In this document: one piece after another, positions 3,820-55,435 of the stretch
Layout of the letters: every line of letters begins with the position of its first letter
How positions within the stretch are numbered: position 1 is the stretch's first letter
DNA from: Steroidobacter sp.
GTDB taxonomy: Bacteria > Pseudomonadota > Gammaproteobacteria > Steroidobacterales > Steroidobacteraceae
Assembly: GCA_025929585.1 (NCBI GenBank)
Contig: JAICPY010000004.1
Coordinates: 31,830-95,829, forward strand
DNA length: 64,000 bases
Reading direction: 5' to 3'
Program-made: the position numbers and the translations under genes
Notes under the pieces: generated by a model
What the model was told of the DNA's origin: nothing
The model's database searches: none
The model's input: only the letters and a program-made list of their open reading frames with translations

Positions 3820-5316
3820 GTGGAGCAGACTCTTCTTATGAACGAAATCGCCGCGCGAGATTCGATGCAGGGTCCGCAACTCTTCGGCCATCCTCGCGGT
3901 TTGCTGACGTTGTTCCTCACCGAGATGTGGGAGCGCGCAACGTACTACGGCATGCGCGCGATCTTGATCTTGTTCATGACCGCTCTGATCGCGCAGGGTG
4001 GCCTGGGGTTGGACGACAAGACCGCAAGCTCTATCTATGGCCTGTACATCTCGGCGACTTATCTGTCCTCGCTGTGGGGCGGCTGGGTCGCAGATCGCTT
4101 GATCGGACAACAGCGCGCGATCATCTACGGTGGTGTATTGATCACGATCGGCAACGCGCTACTGGTCGTAAGCAACACCGGATTCTTTTTTGTCGGTCTC
4201 GCCATCATCGTGTTCGGAACCGGACTGCTCAAGCCGAACATCAGTGCGATCGTCGCGCAGCTTTATCCAGAAGGTGGCTCGCGGCGCGATGCAGGATTCT
4301 CCATTTTTTACATGGGCATCAACGTCGGTGCTTTTCTAGGCCAACTTCTAGTGCCGATCATCGCCGCAGCCGCGGGATGGAAAATCGGCTTCGTGGTGCC
4401 GGCGCTCGGAATGGCATTTGGCGTCTCGCAGTTCATTCTTGGCCGCAAGCATCTTCACAACGCGGGCGCTCAACCACCCGGACAGCCTGCAGGATGGTGG
4501 CCGGTATATGGGCTCGTGATCGTCGCGCTCATCATCGTCGTCCTTGGGTTTACAGGGACGGTCACGTTCAATCCCACCGCAATCGCAGTGACGGCCAATT
4601 GGGCCATGATCGCACTTGCGGCGGCGTATTTTGCTTACCTGCTTTTGTTCGCAGGGCTCGATCGTATCGAGAAGGGCCGAACGCTCGCGATGATTGCTTT
4701 GTTCATCGCTTGCGCGATGTTTTGGGCTGGCTTCGAGCAAGCGGGCGCATCTTTCACACTGTTCGCGGAGCGCTATACGGACCGCAACATTTTTGGCTGG
4801 GAAATTCCTGGTGGCGCAGTGCAAGGCGCGAACTCACTGTTCATCATCATTTTCGCTCCCATCTTCGCCTCGATATGGGTCGCGTTGGGCAGACGCAACC
4901 TCGACCCTTCGGCACCGGCGAAATTTGCGCTGGGTTTGATTCTGATGGGCATGGGCTTTCTGGTGATGTTCTTCGCTGCGGGCTTGGTCGTGAGCGGCGA
5001 GAAAGTACTGCCAACCTGGCTTTTGATCACCTATCTCTTTCACACGTTCGGTGAGCTGTGCCTAAGTCCAGTCGGATTGAGCTCGATGACGAAACTCGCG
5101 CCACCGCGCTTCGTGGGCCAAGTGATGGGAGTTTGGTTTCTCGCCACCGCGATCGGCAACAACTTGGCTGGACAGTTTGCAGGCGAGATCGATCCCAACA
5201 ATCTGCCGGCGATGCCTGGCGCGTATCTGTACCTATTCTGGTGGGGCACGATTGCAGGCCTGGTTCTACTCGCGCTTACGCCTTTCATCAAACGTCTAAT
5301 GGGCGGCGTGAAGTGA
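3820..5316 (+). CDS. POT/PTR-family peptide MFS transporter (GTG start; ATG at 3838 also possible)
   Basis: LTEMWERATYYGMRAILILFM, GTGLLKPNISAIV, FSIFYMGINVGAFLGQL: POT signatures. Confidence 0.88.
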   Translation: MEQTLLMNEIAARDSMQGPQLFGHPRGLLTLFLTEMWERATYYGMRAILILFMTALIAQGGLGLDDKTASSIYGLYISATYLSSLWGGWVADRLIGQQRAIIYGGVLITIGNALLVVSNTGFFFVGLAIIVFGTGLLKPNISAIVAQLYPEGGSRRDAGFSIFYMGINVGAFLGQLLVPIIAAAAGWKIGFVVPALGMAFGVSQFILGRKHLHNAGAQPPGQPAGWWPVYGLVIVALIIVVLGFTGTVTFNPTAIAVTANWAMIALAAAYFAYLLLFAGLDRIEKGRTLAMIALFIACAMFWAGFEQAGASFTLFAERYTDRNIFGWEIPGGAVQGANSLFIIIFAPIFASIWVALGRRNLDPSAPAKFALGLILMGMGFLVMFFAAGLVVSGEKVLPTWLLITYLFHTFGELCLSPVGLSSMTKLAPPRFVGQVMGVWFLATAIGNNLAGQFAGEIDPNNLPAMPGAYLYLFWWGTIAGLVLLALTPFIKRLMGGVK

Positions 5317-5339
5317 TCTACTCCATAGGAGATTGGCGC

Positions 5340-7184
5340 ATGAATTCGGATCGAGATCGGTTGATGCAGAGAATCTGCATGGCTTGCCGAACTGCTCTAG
5401 GCACGGCAATCGTCCTCGCCATTGCGGGATGTAGCCGAACCGAACAACCTGAACAAGCACGTGAAGATGCGCCTGCGTTCGTCGAGCGTATCAACCGCGA
5501 GATGGCGGAGCGCGGTCACGAGCTGGGCGCCGCAGCCTTCACGTATGCCACGTATATCAACCCGGATACGGAATTCTTGAATTCCAAAGCGAACGAGCGT
5601 TATCTCGAATATTTCTCGAATGCGGTAGAGCAGGCGAAGGCGTTTGAAGGTCAATCGTTGGATTCGACCAGTGCGCGAGCCATCAAGCTTCTCAAACTAG
5701 GTGTATCTGCACCTGCGCCAAAGGATCCGCAGAAGCGCGCGCAACTCTCAGCGCTCGCCTCGAAGATGGAAGGAATGTACGGCGCCGCGAAGTACTGCCC
5801 GCAAGGTCCTGAATCCTGCAAAGACCAAATCGAGCTCACGCAAACCATGGCCGAGAGTCGTGATTACGAGGCGCTCAAAGAGGCGTGGTCGGGCTGGCAT
5901 TCCACGGCGCGTCCAATGCGCGAGGAATACGCGAACTTCGTCGAGCTCGCCAATGAAGGCGCACGCGAACTGGGCTTCAGCGACTTGGGTGCGATGTGGC
6001 GCTCGAACTACGATATGCAGCCGGATGAGTTCACGCAGGAAGCCTCGCGCTTATGGGGCCAAGTGAAGCCGCTCTATGGGGCTTTGCATTGCTACGTGCG
6101 TGACAGACTGCAAGACACGTACGGTGAGGACAAAGTGCCGAGCGACAAACCTATCCCTGCGCACCTGCTCGGCAACATGTGGGCGCAGCAGTGGGCGGAG
6201 ATCTATCCGCTGGTCGAACCTTATCCTGGTGTCTCGGATCTCGATATCACCGCGGCGTTGAAGAAGCAAAAGTACGATGCGGTGCGCATCACTCGAGCAG
6301 CCGAAAGCTTCTATGTCTCTTTAGGCTTTCCGAAGCTCCCGCAGTCCTTCTGGGAGCGTTCGATGCTGACGAAGCCTGCCGATCGCGAGGTGCAATGCCA
6401 TGCGAGCGCCTGGCATATGGATGCGAACGAGGACGTTCGCATCAAGCAATGCATCGAGGCTACGCAGGAAGAACTGATGACGGTCTATCACGAGCTCGGA
6501 CACGTGTATTACTACCTCGCGTACAAGGACCAGCCGTATCTGTTCCAAAGCGGAGCGCACGATGGCTTTCATGAGGCGATTGGCGATACGGTCAATCTTT
6601 CGATGACGCCCGCGTACTTGCATGAGATCGGCTTGATTGGGCCCGTGAAGCGCAATGACCAATCGACGATCAATCAACAGATGAAGATCGCCCTGGATAA
6701 GATCGCGTTCTTGCCTTTCGGGAAGCTGATCGATGAGTGGCGTTGGAAAGTATTCTCAGGCGAGGTGAAGCCGGAGAACTACAACGCTGCTTGGTGGGAA
6801 CTGCGCGAGCAGTACCAAGGCGTATCCGCACCGGTGCCGCGAAGCGAGGAAGATTTCGATCCAGGTGCGAAGTACCACATTCCGGGCAACACGCCCTACA
6901 CCCGCTATTTCCTGTCCTTCATCTTGCAGTTTCAGTTTCACAAAGCGCTGTGCGAAGCAGCCGGTCACCAAGGACCGCTGCACGAGTGTTCCGTGTACGG
7001 CAACGAAGAAGCGGGTCGTCGCTTCCGTGAGATGCTTGCGATGGGACAAAGCCAACCCTGGCAACAAACACTCGAGAAGCTCACTGGCACGCGCGAGATG
7101 GATGCCTCCGCGATCACCGAATATTTCGCGCCGCTGTTGAGCTGGTTAGAGGAGCAAAACAAAGGCAAGCAATGCGGGTGGTGA
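5340..7184 (+). CDS. M2-family peptidyl-dipeptidase (ACE-like metallopeptidase)
   Basis: HELGH zinc motif in VYHELGHVYYYLAYKDQPYLFQSGAHDGFHEAIGD; lipoprotein-like N-terminus (AIAGC). Confidence 0.87.
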   Translation: MNSDRDRLMQRICMACRTALGTAIVLAIAGCSRTEQPEQAREDAPAFVERINREMAERGHELGAAAFTYATYINPDTEFLNSKANERYLEYFSNAVEQAKAFEGQSLDSTSARAIKLLKLGVSAPAPKDPQKRAQLSALASKMEGMYGAAKYCPQGPESCKDQIELTQTMAESRDYEALKEAWSGWHSTARPMREEYANFVELANEGARELGFSDLGAMWRSNYDMQPDEFTQEASRLWGQVKPLYGALHCYVRDRLQDTYGEDKVPSDKPIPAHLLGNMWAQQWAEIYPLVEPYPGVSDLDITAALKKQKYDAVRITRAAESFYVSLGFPKLPQSFWERSMLTKPADREVQCHASAWHMDANEDVRIKQCIEATQEELMTVYHELGHVYYYLAYKDQPYLFQSGAHDGFHEAIGDTVNLSMTPAYLHEIGLIGPVKRNDQSTINQQMKIALDKIAFLPFGKLIDEWRWKVFSGEVKPENYNAAWWELREQYQGVSAPVPRSEEDFDPGAKYHIPGNTPYTRYFLSFILQFQFHKALCEAAGHQGPLHECSVYGNEEAGRRFREMLAMGQSQPWQQTLEKLTGTREMDASAITEYFAPLLSWLEEQNKGKQCGW

Positions 7185-50695: not shown

Positions 50696-50845
50696 GTGCG
50701 TTACGTTCTCATCGATGCGAAGCAGCATGATCCTCTCAGCTTGCCCACCGAGCTTGGAACGAAGCCGAGCCAATGGGCAGCCGTCTGCAGCGCACTTGCC
50801 TTCGCGACGTTATGGATTGTCGCGGAGCTGCTCAATCGAGTTTGA
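50696..50845 (+). CDS. 49-aa putative membrane protein (GTG start)
   Basis: Shine-Dalgarno AAGGAGG 5 nt before GTG; C-terminal TM WAAVCSALAFATLWIVAELLNRV. Confidence 0.45.
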   Translation: MRYVLIDAKQHDPLSLPTELGTKPSQWAAVCSALAFATLWIVAELLNRV

Positions 50846-51875
50846 AGCTGAGTTTGAGTCGATAGGTCGCTTTAGGGCAGTTACTGCGCATCACCATTTC
50901 GCTGACTGCTTTCACGGCGGCCTGATCGAGTGCGGGAAACATGCTGCTCGCGACCGCGCGAACGTTCGTCGGATTGCTTGCCTTACCCGCCAGGGTGAAC
51001 TCGACCGTGACTGGACCTTCTTCGCCAGCGGTGCGCGAGGCAGCAGGGTAATAATCGGCAATCGCGACGGGCTTTACGACCTCGTACTTGCAATTCGCGG
51101 GTGTATCCAACGGCGGCAACTTGGCGCGCGGCGTGCACACTGCATCGAACACTGAAGCGCTGGTATCGTCTTTCGCGAGACTTCCTGCGACTACTTGGCT
51201 CGAGCGAGGCACGACCAGTGCTTGCGCCTGCGCCTTTACATTGCCGGCGATGTCAGCGCCGTCATAGGTGATCTGTCCCTTGCATTCAAGGGTCTCATCC
51301 GACTCGTTGACTACCACGACAGCGCGATAAAGACATTGCAGACCGTTGCCGCAAGCACGCGAATGGTCATCTCGTGCGAGTAGATAAAGCCACGAGCCGG
51401 AAGGCAGGTCAAAACGATGCCCGGAAGATTCGATGACCATTTGCTCGGCCGTAGGCGTGGTGGCAGTACGATTTGCTGCCGCAGCGAGATGTTTCGAGCA
51501 ATCGGCAGGTTTGACTGACGTACCGCCACCGCTGGTCTTGAATGTGTCGAGCTGCTCGTTGAAGCAGTTCGCAAGCCCACTGACCTCGTCGGCCGCAGCG
51601 TTGTGAGCAGCGGCATAGGTCTCGTTGAGCTTGGCTTTCTCAGCATCCTCTTTGCCGATCGACTTCTGCCCCAGTTCCCCTTGTAGGCAACCAACATACT
51701 TGGAGACCGCGTCGGCGAATCCCACTACCTGTTTCTGCGCGGCTGCCATTTGCTCGGCGTTGGCGGTCTTGCCATCCGGCACTTCAAAAGCGGGCCGCGG
51801 CCGGGTGCAATCCGCCCAAGCTCCGCTCATCGACATCGTCAACGCAATCGCCGCACCTACTCTCGCCAAGTTCAT
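50832..51875 (-). CDS. Exported protein with TonB-like C-terminal domain
   Basis: Signal peptide; EEGPVTVEFTLAGKASNPTNVRAVASSMFPALDQAAVKAVSEM. Confidence 0.65.
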   Translation of the reverse strand: MNLARVGAAIALTMSMSGAWADCTRPRPAFEVPDGKTANAEQMAAAQKQVVGFADAVSKYVGCLQGELGQKSIGKEDAEKAKLNETYAAAHNAAADEVSGLANCFNEQLDTFKTSGGGTSVKPADCSKHLAAAANRTATTPTAEQMVIESSGHRFDLPSGSWLYLLARDDHSRACGNGLQCLYRAVVVVNESDETLECKGQITYDGADIAGNVKAQAQALVVPRSSQVVAGSLAKDDTSASVFDAVCTPRAKLPPLDTPANCKYEVVKPVAIADYYPAASRTAGEEGPVTVEFTLAGKASNPTNVRAVASSMFPALDQAAVKAVSEMVMRSNCPKATYRLKLSFKLD

Positions 51876-52016: not shown

Positions 52017-53282
52017 CTATTCTGCTGTACAGCCTTTGCGCGGATTGAGTTGAGCAATCGCCTTGCAAGCATTGATCGAGACAACTCCCCCGTGGGAAGT
52101 CTCGTGTTGGTCCATCGAGGCCTGCAGAATCCGGATGATTTCGCCCGTGCCGAGTCGACGATTCAGCTCGAGCAGTAAAGCAACGACGCCGGAGACCTGA
52201 GCGGTTGCCAATGAAGAGCCGGAAGCAAAGTCATAGTGGCCTTGAGGAACGAGCGTCACCAGATCGCGCCCCGGTGCCCGCAGCAACTCCTCGTTGAGGT
52301 TCTGCGTTTCTGATTCGGCGACCGCGATCACGTTCTGCAAACCTGCTGGAAACGTGTTCGAAGAGACCTCTTTGCCCGCTGCACCGACGACAATGGCTCT
52401 GGCCTCGATGGCTTTCTCCACTAGGGCAGTCAGCAAGGGATCGGCGGGACCAATGAGGCTCAAGTTGATTATCTGCGCCCGCGCAGCGATGGCGCCTGCG
52501 AGTGCCTGCGCCAGCGTAAAAGAATTGCATCGCCCACCATTGGACGCGTCATCATGCCAACACGCCTTGAACGAAAGTAGCTTCACTTCGGGCGCAACTC
52601 CAACGATCCCGATACCGTTGTTCGCAGCGGCTGCGATCAGCCCGGCGACCTGCGTTCCGTGGCGATCACTGCGCAAAGTATCCAGATTGGCATCGACATA
52701 GTTTCCGCCCAGCGTAACGCGGCCAGAAAAATCGGGATGATCCAGATCGACGCCAGTGTCGATCACCGCGACACGGACGCCATGACCTTTGCTGTACCGA
52801 TGAGCATCACGTACCCCCAAGGCACGCACGTTCTCCTGCAACTTGGCGTACGGATCGTCGTATTCCGAAGAGGCCGATGCGAACTCATTCAAAGGCTGTG
52901 CGATGAGAACGCGATCGTTTTGTTGCAAACGCTGCAGCACGTCGTTGCGCGAAGACCCTGCGGGAATTCGAAACACGATGCAATGCACTTGCAGTTGTTC
53001 AATCGGCCATTCCGAGACTGAGGTGAGCCCATAGTCGCGGCTCAAGTCGTTCACGATCGCGAGCGCGGCGGGACTGGCCCGATAACCGCCGCTTTGATAT
53101 CCACGCGAGGTACCGCCTACCGTCCCTGAACGCGCGGATTGCGGGTTCGCGATAGTGACGACGATGAAGTGTTCTGGCTCAGCCAGCGCCTCTGCCGGCA
53201 TCAACGTCGCAGCCGCTGAATTCGCCATCATTCCGATGAGTGCAAATGCTGCACTCGCGATTGCGATCAAAGTTGCACGCAT
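52017..53282 (-). CDS. S8-family (subtilisin-like) serine protease, exported
   Basis: Catalytic motifs VAVIDTGVDLDHPDF (Asp), RHGTQVAGLIAAAANNGIGIVGVAPEVKLLSFK (His), SGSSLATAQVSGVVALLLEL (Ser). Confidence 0.9.
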   Translation of the reverse strand: MRATLIAIASAAFALIGMMANSAAATLMPAEALAEPEHFIVVTIANPQSARSGTVGGTSRGYQSGGYRASPAALAIVNDLSRDYGLTSVSEWPIEQLQVHCIVFRIPAGSSRNDVLQRLQQNDRVLIAQPLNEFASASSEYDDPYAKLQENVRALGVRDAHRYSKGHGVRVAVIDTGVDLDHPDFSGRVTLGGNYVDANLDTLRSDRHGTQVAGLIAAAANNGIGIVGVAPEVKLLSFKACWHDDASNGGRCNSFTLAQALAGAIAARAQIINLSLIGPADPLLTALVEKAIEARAIVVGAAGKEVSSNTFPAGLQNVIAVAESETQNLNEELLRAPGRDLVTLVPQGHYDFASGSSLATAQVSGVVALLLELNRRLGTGEIIRILQASMDQHETSHGGVVSINACKAIAQLNPRKGCTAE

Positions 53283-53296
53283 ATGGATCTCAGAGC

Positions 53297-53965
53297 CTAT
53301 TGGCTAACGGGCTCGGCGAACTGGACATGCGCATTGGCTCGCAGATCGGTTGCGATCCGCTCCGCTGAGATCTCTTCAGTCGTGTCTGCAAGTGCGGCTG
53401 TGAAGACGCCGGCGCCACGGGGGCCCCCGACAAGCTCTAACTGATGCCGCGCTAGAATTTCAGTGACATCAGCCATGGAGGTGTCCGCGGTGAAGACCAG
53501 CCGGACTGCAGGTCCAAGTGGGCGAACTTCACCGTTCGTCACTGTTTTGAACTCGCCACGCAGCTCCTCGCTGTTGTTTAGCGCCGTGACCCCGAGCAGC
53601 GCAAGGCCGATGGCCTGCACGATCACCGCAGCAGCAAGCCATCGCACAGTTCGGCGAGGCGCGGTGCCCGCGACGCGAACCGGTGCAACGTCTTCATCGG
53701 CTGGCACCGCGCTTTCCGACGCTTCGATTCGGGTCCACAGTTTCGCGAACGCGCGCTGCTCGGACGAAGCATAGGATGGCAGCGAATCCCGCATTTCCTT
53801 CGCGAGCGGCCGTTGCGTCTCGAGCTCACGGCGACATTCCTCGCAGGATTGAACGTGCAACTCTACCCACTCGCGATCTTCCGCTGCGATGCGACCGTTG
53901 ATGAGAAAAGGCAGAAGGGCCCAGGCTTCGGCATGGGTATCAGGAATTCGGCCGGAATGGCTCAT
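53297..53965 (-). CDS. Transmembrane zf-HC2 anti-sigma factor with subtilase-propeptide-like C-terminal domain
   Basis: HVQSCEECRREL zinc motif; TM RWLAAAVIVQAIGLALLGVTAL; C-terminal IATDLRANAHVQFAEPVSQ. Confidence 0.78.
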   Translation of the reverse strand: MSHSGRIPDTHAEAWALLPFLINGRIAAEDREWVELHVQSCEECRRELETQRPLAKEMRDSLPSYASSEQRAFAKLWTRIEASESAVPADEDVAPVRVAGTAPRRTVRWLAAAVIVQAIGLALLGVTALNNSEELRGEFKTVTNGEVRPLGPAVRLVFTADTSMADVTEILARHQLELVGGPRGAGVFTAALADTTEEISAERIATDLRANAHVQFAEPVSQ

Positions 53966-54567
53966 GTGAAATCTCCACTGCCGCCTGCGAGAGCCGGCAA
54001 GACATTCTTCAAAGTCTCGCGTGCGCGAAACAAACGCGTTTTTACGGTGTTGACGGGGCAACTCAAGATCGTGGCAATTTCCTCGCAAGAGTGCCCCATC
54101 GTGTAGGTGAGCTCGAGCGCGAGCCGCTGTTCCAGCGGCAACTTATCGAGTCCCTGCTGGATCCACTGGCTGCGCTCCTCGCCTTGGGCACTAGAGGGAG
54201 TGGAAATCATGTCTTCTGAAATCGGCTCGCTCCCAACGGGGCGAAGGCGCTCGCGGCGCAGCGTATTCAACGCGCGACGGTAAGCGATGCCGATAATCCA
54301 AGTGGACAGTTGCGAGGCGCCGCGGAACTCGGACGCTTTCGTCCATACGACCCAGAAGGTGTCGTTGATGATTTCTTCGATGTCCTCGCGGCGCATCGAC
54401 ATGCGGCTCAACAAACGTGTAAGTCGTTGATAGTAAATGCCGTAGAGCTCCCGAAAAGCGGCCTGCTCGCGCTTTTCAGCGATGCGGGCCAACAATTCCC
54501 GCTCTTGCTGATCGGTCAGAGCTGACCGCAAGGGGGCGGGAGCGGTATCGATGCTTTTGAGAGCCAC
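53962..54567 (-). CDS. ECF-type RNA polymerase sigma factor
   Basis: Region 2 ELYGIYYQRLTRLLSRMSMRREDIEEIINDTFWVVWTKASEFRG; region 4 LPLEQRLALELTYTMGHSCEEIATILSCPVNTVKTRLFRARETLK. Confidence 0.9.
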   Translation of the reverse strand: MALKSIDTAPAPLRSALTDQQERELLARIAEKREQAAFRELYGIYYQRLTRLLSRMSMRREDIEEIINDTFWVVWTKASEFRGASQLSTWIIGIAYRRALNTLRRERLRPVGSEPISEDMISTPSSAQGEERSQWIQQGLDKLPLEQRLALELTYTMGHSCEEIATILSCPVNTVKTRLFRARETLKNVLPALAGGSGDFT

Positions 54568-54652
54568 GGCGCACCTCGTTTGGAACGTTCGCAGCGTATG
54601 TAACCGGCCTGTGCGATCTGGTTCCCCATCGCATGAGGATTCTGCCGCGTCG

Positions 54653-55435
54653 CTACGGGACTATGCCGAATCGATACAGGAGGGTGACAGCAATTCGTTC
54701 ACCGGCTGCTCGGGTACTGAAGATGCGCTCTGCCGTGTCATCCGCGCCGAGCACCGCTAGATGCAGTTCGATCGGCGAGAAGTTCGCCGAAAGGGTCGCA
54801 CCCCAATAGTCATAGTCATCCGCATAAATCTCTTCCAATACGTATCGGCCTACGCCGACCGAGACCGACCAGCGCGTTGAGAGGGCATGACGTGCCGATA
54901 CTTCGAGCGCCCACGTATCGCCTGTCGAGATTCCGGGCGTTGAAGCGATCGATTCTGTGTTCGGCGAAAAGGTAGCGGAGAAGAATACTGTGCTGCGAAC
55001 GCCCAACGTCGCGGTGAACTCATCACGATCGTATTCAGCGACGCGCGGATCGTCGGGGTACATGTAATGCGTGTAGCGTAAGTCAGCCGAGACCCATTCA
55101 TTGAAACCGTGCTGATATCCGGCCCACAGATCGACTTCTGCCGCCGGGCTTGGACCCGGGTTGGGATTGGTTGTCGAGACAAACGTGCCCACATATGCCC
55201 CGACCGGGAACTCAACATCCAAACTTGCCTGTAAGGCCGGATCGCCGCGCGTATACGACAGTCCTCTAAAAACGAAGTCTGAGGTTGCGCCGATCGATCC
55301 CGTGACGCTTGTTTGCGCGAGTGCAGCAGGAGCCAAGAGCAAGCTTACGCATGCACCGACGCACGCGAGACAGCAACGTAGATATATAGAGAGTCGTTGC
55401 ATAGGCGGCCGTGCCATCGTTCTTGTGAGCGCCAA
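54653..55435 (-). CDS. TorF-like putative outer-membrane porin
   Basis: Signal peptide; SVTGSIGATSDFVFRGLSYTRGDPALQASLDVEFPVGAYVGTFVSTTN. Confidence 0.75.
   Translation of the reverse strand: MALTRTMARPPMQRLSIYLRCCLACVGACVSLLLAPAALAQTSVTGSIGATSDFVFRGLSYTRGDPALQASLDVEFPVGAYVGTFVSTTNPNPGPSPAAEVDLWAGYQHGFNEWVSADLRYTHYMYPDDPRVAEYDRDEFTATLGVRSTVFFSATFSPNTESIASTPGISTGDTWALEVSARHALSTRWSVSVGVGRYVLEEIYADDYDYWGATLSANFSPIELHLAVLGADDTAERIFSTRAAGERIAVTLLYRFGIVP

Follow-up and report, generated by a model that had tools for sequence, protein, structure and literature searches.

Among described systems, the RseA/DegS/RseP pathway (sigma-E) resembles the locus studied here in joining an ECF sigma factor, an anti-sigma factor with one transmembrane (TM) helix and an envelope protease, in our case a proposed one, for the first cut outside the membrane; an RseP-family protease encoded in the genome and an outer-membrane barrel complete the likeness. 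Unlike in that pathway, a prodomain-bearing S8 subtilase, and not a PDZ trypsin-like enzyme, is the proposed site-1 protease here, it is encoded with the anti-sigma factor, and the anti-sigma factor carries both a relative of the prodomain and a copy of the protease junction. In the CRISPR-linked CalpL/CalpT/CalpS system, a cytoplasmic Lon protease activated by cyclic oligoadenylate cuts the anti-sigma factor and the sigma factor is released; a dedicated protease is encoded with the anti-sigma factor there too, but there is no prodomain mimicry. The prodomains of pro-subtilisin and fervidolysin (N-pro) and the I9-type inhibitor POIA1 share the beta-alpha-beta-beta-alpha-beta fold and the PF22148 matches described below, and this prodomain fold is known for inhibition in trans, but in our locus a domain of this kind makes up the periplasmic end of an anti-sigma factor embedded in the membrane. 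RsgI9 has a subtilase-like domain, but the sigma factors paired with RsgI proteins are of the SigI type, and we know of no RsgI protein that mimics a prodomain and has a separate S8 gene as its partner. The RsgI proteins of Clostridium thermocellum are presented as transmembrane anti-sigma factors that sense substrates and act through regulated intramembrane proteolysis (RIP; PMC12203970). ECF54-type loci, which have subtilase, carboxypeptidase and CHAT neighbours and for which proteolytic control was proposed, likewise place an ECF sigma factor next to a subtilase, but are described as having no anti-sigma factor (PMC8999054). Both anti-sigma RIP and trans-acting prodomains have precedents; the literature searched contained neither the two combined nor any description of this wiring, the main ECF classification lying outside the scope of the search and an existing ECF group number being possible.

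The locus lies in a 64,000-nucleotide stretch of a Steroidobacter sp. genome, hereafter the window, to which the coordinates refer; all its features given below are on the minus strand. As the preliminary description had it, three co-directional genes nearly abut, with exact ORF coordinates: the sigma and anti-sigma genes overlap by ATGA and the anti-sigma gene is separated by 14 nt from that of an S8 protease. The sigma gene (53962..54567) starts with GTG and encodes 201 aa matching Sigma70_r2 and Sigma70_r4_2 in Pfam, that is, an ECF sigma factor of regions 2 and 4 only. The anti-sigma gene (53297..53965) encodes 222 aa comprising a zf-HC2 zinc-finger domain (residues 13-45, 53831..53929; PF13490, E 2.7e-6), one TM helix at about residues 106-130 (53576..53650; residues 106-135 in the AlphaFold (AF2) model), in which the mid-helix Gln117 is conserved (41/44 homologues), and a periplasmic part of ~90 residues that ends in a prodomain-like C-terminal domain (CTD; residues 153-220, 53306..53509). 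Pfam and AF2 identify the two products as an ECF sigma/class I (zf-HC2) anti-sigma pair, and an orthologue of the sigma factor adjoins the CTD-bearing anti-sigma homologues that were checked. Two relatives of the anti-sigma factor (L022 and L026) have lost the zinc-finger residues and kept the CTD. The third gene (52017..53282) encodes a 421-aa subtilase with a Sec signal, a PF00082 match (E 2.1e-32) and the full D/H/S triad, in agreement with the intact secreted S8 protease reported earlier. Absent from that report were a TorF barrel as fourth gene, a sigma promoter and the loss of the oxyanion Asn of the protease. Directly downstream of the protease, positions 50832-51875 encode a secreted product whose C-terminal domain is of the TonB type, and a second complete TorF-sigma-anti-sigma-S8 module is found on another contig of the same genome (G000:C35:70500-77340; L021, L108).

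The claim that a propeptide-like domain follows the TM of the anti-sigma factor was borne out. AlphaFold, with 23 orthologues, predicted a beta-alpha-beta-beta-alpha-beta arrangement for residues 153-220 (pLDDT ~95), so the ferredoxin-like propeptide fold was indeed found after the TM. Foldseek placed the furin-bound PC1/3 prodomain first among PDB structures (probability 1.00, E 0.014), and pro-subtilisins occupied ranks 10 and 12 (probability 1.00). Since E-values were modest across the top matches (~0.01-0.05) and general ferredoxin-like folds (ACT, EF1B) scored close to prodomains, the predicted fold by itself would not decide prodomain identity. These scores, together with the existence of orphan loci without S8 (see below), can be counted for a reading in which the CTD is one of many ferredoxin-like periplasmic sensor domains, its prodomain likeness arose by convergence and the adjacent S8 gene has a role of its own. 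We consider that reading very improbable, in view of the near-universal S8 linkage amid rearranged gene order, the motif covariation presented below, and a resemblance, at the level of sequence too, to both PF22148 and the prodomain of the partner. PF22148 (Fervidolysin_NPro-like) was matched by 17/23 anti-sigma homologues (best E 2.5e-6), and a Pfam search with the window's own CTD alone gave no match. In the genome to which the window belongs this profile had four weak matches only: the anti-sigma factor and the protease of the paralogous module, and two ORFs also matching the S8 profile. The CTD profile aligned with that of the adjacent protease prodomain at E 5.6e-5 in the first set and, over 44 loci, at E 7.1e-7 (hhalign, probability 92%), with a score of 36.1 as compared to 18.6 for the best of 200 shuffles. 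A PDB sequence search with the CTD produced one weak match (E 0.27) to a serine proteinase chain of 112 aa, which is probably a propeptide; this was not taken as proof. Both the ferredoxin-like fold and the family-profile match of a subtilase prodomain were thus found, the latter via homologues and the partner prodomain, and these comparisons show kinship between the CTD of the anti-sigma factor and the prodomain of its partner protease. The protease has its own version of the domain, as had also been proposed: its residues 39-130 (52893..53168) form a beta-alpha-beta-beta-alpha-beta prodomain in AF2, with no Pfam match.

Homologues of the anti-sigma factor proved to be generally linked to S8 proteases, as the preliminary description required, with few exceptions: some orphans, and a single case linked to a caspase-like gene. 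Among 60 relatives, those full-length homologues whose flanks were long enough adjoined both sigma and S8 genes, some contigs ending too early for neighbours to be judged. In an even sample of Pseudomonadota, 34/399 genomes matched at E <= 1e-8, which places the module in about 8% of the genomes sampled, and S8 lay beside sigma/anti-sigma in all of the new loci inspected (27/27). The protease alignment, a fairer query for linkage than that of the anti-sigma factor, was searched against 84,980 species genomes, and its nearest relatives (~32% identity and up), from Gammaproteobacteria, Burkholderiales, Sphingopyxis, Rhizobiales, Desulfobulbaceae and Acidobacteriota, were mostly encoded after a sigma factor and a CTD-bearing anti-sigma factor. 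The exceptions came from the class sample. Three related loci, L157, L158 and L160, set between dnaK-dnaJ-dapB and carAB, encode a sigma factor and a CTD-bearing anti-sigma factor (at 5373-6050, 5053-5742 and 4751-5419, respectively) with no S8 adjacent, and two of the three genomes gave no S8 match anywhere, so that the CTD can be kept for some reason other than an S8 partner. L164 also had no adjacent S8. In L159, a caspase-like secreted protein (5581-6975, C14-type by motif) follows sigma/anti-sigma in the place of S8, which looks like an exchange of one protease class for another.

The fourth gene of the module in gamma/beta lineages encodes a TorF-family (Gcw_chp) outer-membrane beta-barrel (54653..55435; TIGR02001, 5.6e-33; PF09694, 7.4e-22). 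Such a barrel was found beside the module in those close relatives whose flanking DNA was long enough, as well as in most Burkholderiales-type loci, its position varying between upstream, downstream and convergent; that the neighbourhood was kept yet gene order rearranged argues for a functional tie of TorF to the module. Fixed membership of torF in the sigma operon was considered and dropped, as in most close relatives the promoter sits between torF and the sigma gene. This conserved promoter, TTGAACC-N15-GGTACTCA, detected by enumeration and then with a weight matrix, usually precedes the sigma gene and was found across Gammaproteobacteria, Burkholderiales and Acidobacteriota, with scores typically of 15-25 against a 99% null of 10.6, the matrix having been built from some of the same sites that it scored. 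The window's copy, with a putative -35 element GGGAACC (54620..54626) and a putative -10 element GTTACATA assigned by the weight matrix (54597..54604), has diverged and scored 11.9, just above that null. An exact-pattern scan of 15 genomes returned 11 matches versus 2 for the reversed control, several of them preceding sigma. In three genomes (L186, L187 and L189) a match precedes the same TIGR03118-family secreted protein, which is likely a regulon member. Single matches were seen before a putative lipoprotein (L191) and a protein with a CxxCH haem motif (L192). The promoter is predicted to be autoregulatory in most of the lineage, and was counted in favour of the explanation that we consider best.

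The protease model resembles pro-subtilisin E and fervidolysin, and its PDB matches include the POIA1-subtilisin complex 1v5i. In the S8 catalytic domain (residues 166-381, 52140..52787) the triad D175/H208/S357 is intact, and it is invariant in 22 aligned proteases; at the position of the oxyanion-hole Asn155, the window's enzyme has Lys304 (codon at 52371-52373). PC2 also deviates at this position. Across the family, loss of Asn155 parallels the occurrence of a TorF neighbour: the residue is replaced in TorF-linked proteases, D/H/S remaining invariant (one alignment, L125, is ambiguous), and kept in the Rhizobiales/Motiliproteus type, and no TorF neighbour was seen in the flanking DNA examined of lineages with Asn155. 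Loss of the oxyanion-hole Asn weakens the claim of normal catalysis and not that of S8 ancestry, and because of it turnover by the TorF-linked proteases, the window's included, may be very poor; combined with an invariant triad, it suggests that catalysis is slow or conditional, or that the protease serves as a sensor. Its co-occurrence with TorF is what speaks for regarding the protease as a pseudo-enzyme-like sensor that hardly turns over, with binding or release of the CTD, gated by TorF, exposing the juxtamembrane site to another protease. We judge this distinctly unlikely: a pseudo-enzyme would not be expected to keep its D/H/S triad invariant, and the match of the anti-sigma factor to the protease's own junction, described next, suggests that the protease is the enzyme. 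A lipobox marks many Steroidobacter-type orthologues as lipoproteins; a fixed lipoprotein anchor for the protease was discarded, the window's copy having no lipobox.

Just outside the TM, the anti-sigma factors carry a motif, [FY]xTL[ST], which in the window reads F139-K-T-V-T143 (53537..53551) and is our proposed site-1 cleavage site. Its first residue, Y/F139, is present in 44/44 sequences and is among the most conserved columns, and AlphaFold left residues 135-144 disordered. The motif was spotted by eye before the statistical test. The segment of the whole protease that best matched it was the post-prodomain junction 'PLNxFxTLSS..YNDPY' (score 9.43, the next scoring 5.80), represented in our protease by F134-A-S-A-S138 between prodomain and catalytic domain (52869..52883), a proposed self-processing site. 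Moreover, position 3 of the motif co-varies between the two proteins (T/T in Steroidobacter types, A/A in Oxalobacteraceae types, G/G in Janthinobacterium and P/P in some distant types), and in 66 non-redundant loci this covariation topped all 69,541 anti-sigma/protease column pairs. In the same loci, anti-sigma 139-145 with protease 134-140 was the top of 67,357 window pairs, a scan in which all pairs share the same phylogeny; covariation was likewise seen in 55 loci. Within the oxyanion-less type alone the motif/junction pair ranked 5 of 77,013. The match was weak in Asn-retaining proteases (p 0.09) and absent in Rhizobiales, and covariation was not significant in the new loci alone, mostly Rhizobiales (p 0.10). 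In the orphan anti-sigma factors without S8, the motif is degenerate.

Simple copying of the prodomain fails to explain the motif, because it precedes the domain in the anti-sigma factor and follows it in the protease. Subtilisins prefer an aromatic P4, a small P2 and a hydrophobic P1 residue, and on this general specificity [FY]xT(L/V)↓(S/T), the arrow marking the cut, reads as a subtilisin-like site. A conserved juxtamembrane motif that is predicted to be disordered and covaries with the protease junction points, on sequence and AF2 evidence, to cleavage of the anti-sigma factor at this segment. The relationship could also run in the reverse direction: the CTD would mainly serve the co-expressed protease, as an inhibitor or chaperone holding it folded and silent at the inner membrane, the anti-sigma factor would be cut by DegS or a different site-1 protease, and the partner protease would be an output of the regulon. 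Subtilase prodomains are classical foldase-inhibitors, the sigma, anti-sigma and protease genes stand together behind the sigma promoter in most loci, and by Pfam the CTD is more prodomain-like than the protease's own matchless prodomain, all of which is in keeping with such a role. Nevertheless, it would leave unexplained why a juxtamembrane segment that is not part of the CTD should copy the protease junction and change along with it, and we regard it as rather unlikely.

We consider it probable, if far from certain, that this is an envelope-signalling module in which the anti-sigma factor receives its site-1 cut from the partner subtilase. This reading draws on the homology of the CTD, the S8 linkage, the match and covariation of the motif, its degeneration in the orphans, the promoter, and the presence of the site-2 protease family in the same genome (Peptidase_M50, E 3.2e-68); counted against it were the loss of Asn155, the orphans without S8, the weak motif match in the Asn-retaining type and its absence in Rhizobiales. 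As the preliminary description inferred, the CTD may be a decoy or inhibitor, and protease binding or cleavage would release the sigma factor. In the mechanism that we propose, the CTD would dock on the mature protease as a trans prodomain, either holding it inactive or positioning it, until an envelope signal, in which the TorF barrel probably has a part in TorF-linked lineages, triggers the system. The protease would then cut the anti-sigma factor within the motif (F139-K-T-V142↓T143 in the window), the shortened anti-sigma factor would be degraded by an RseP-type site-2 protease, and the sigma factor so freed would transcribe the operon that encodes it together with the genes of a few secreted proteins. 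More tentatively, and with somewhat less than even confidence, we picture the module as a zymogen rewired as a switch, in which prodomain and self-cleavage site of the partner protease are both present in the anti-sigma factor, so that cutting the latter repeats maturation in trans, the whole being adapted to slow catalysis and tied to TorF.

Many ECF pathways lack an identified site-1 protease; in this case sequence allows a prediction of the likely enzyme, of its docking domain and even of the bond that is cut, and the module is testable with ordinary bacterial genetics. It also gives a context to the conserved TorF neighbour and, if the proposal is true, the parts of a zymogen would have been reused as a signalling interface.
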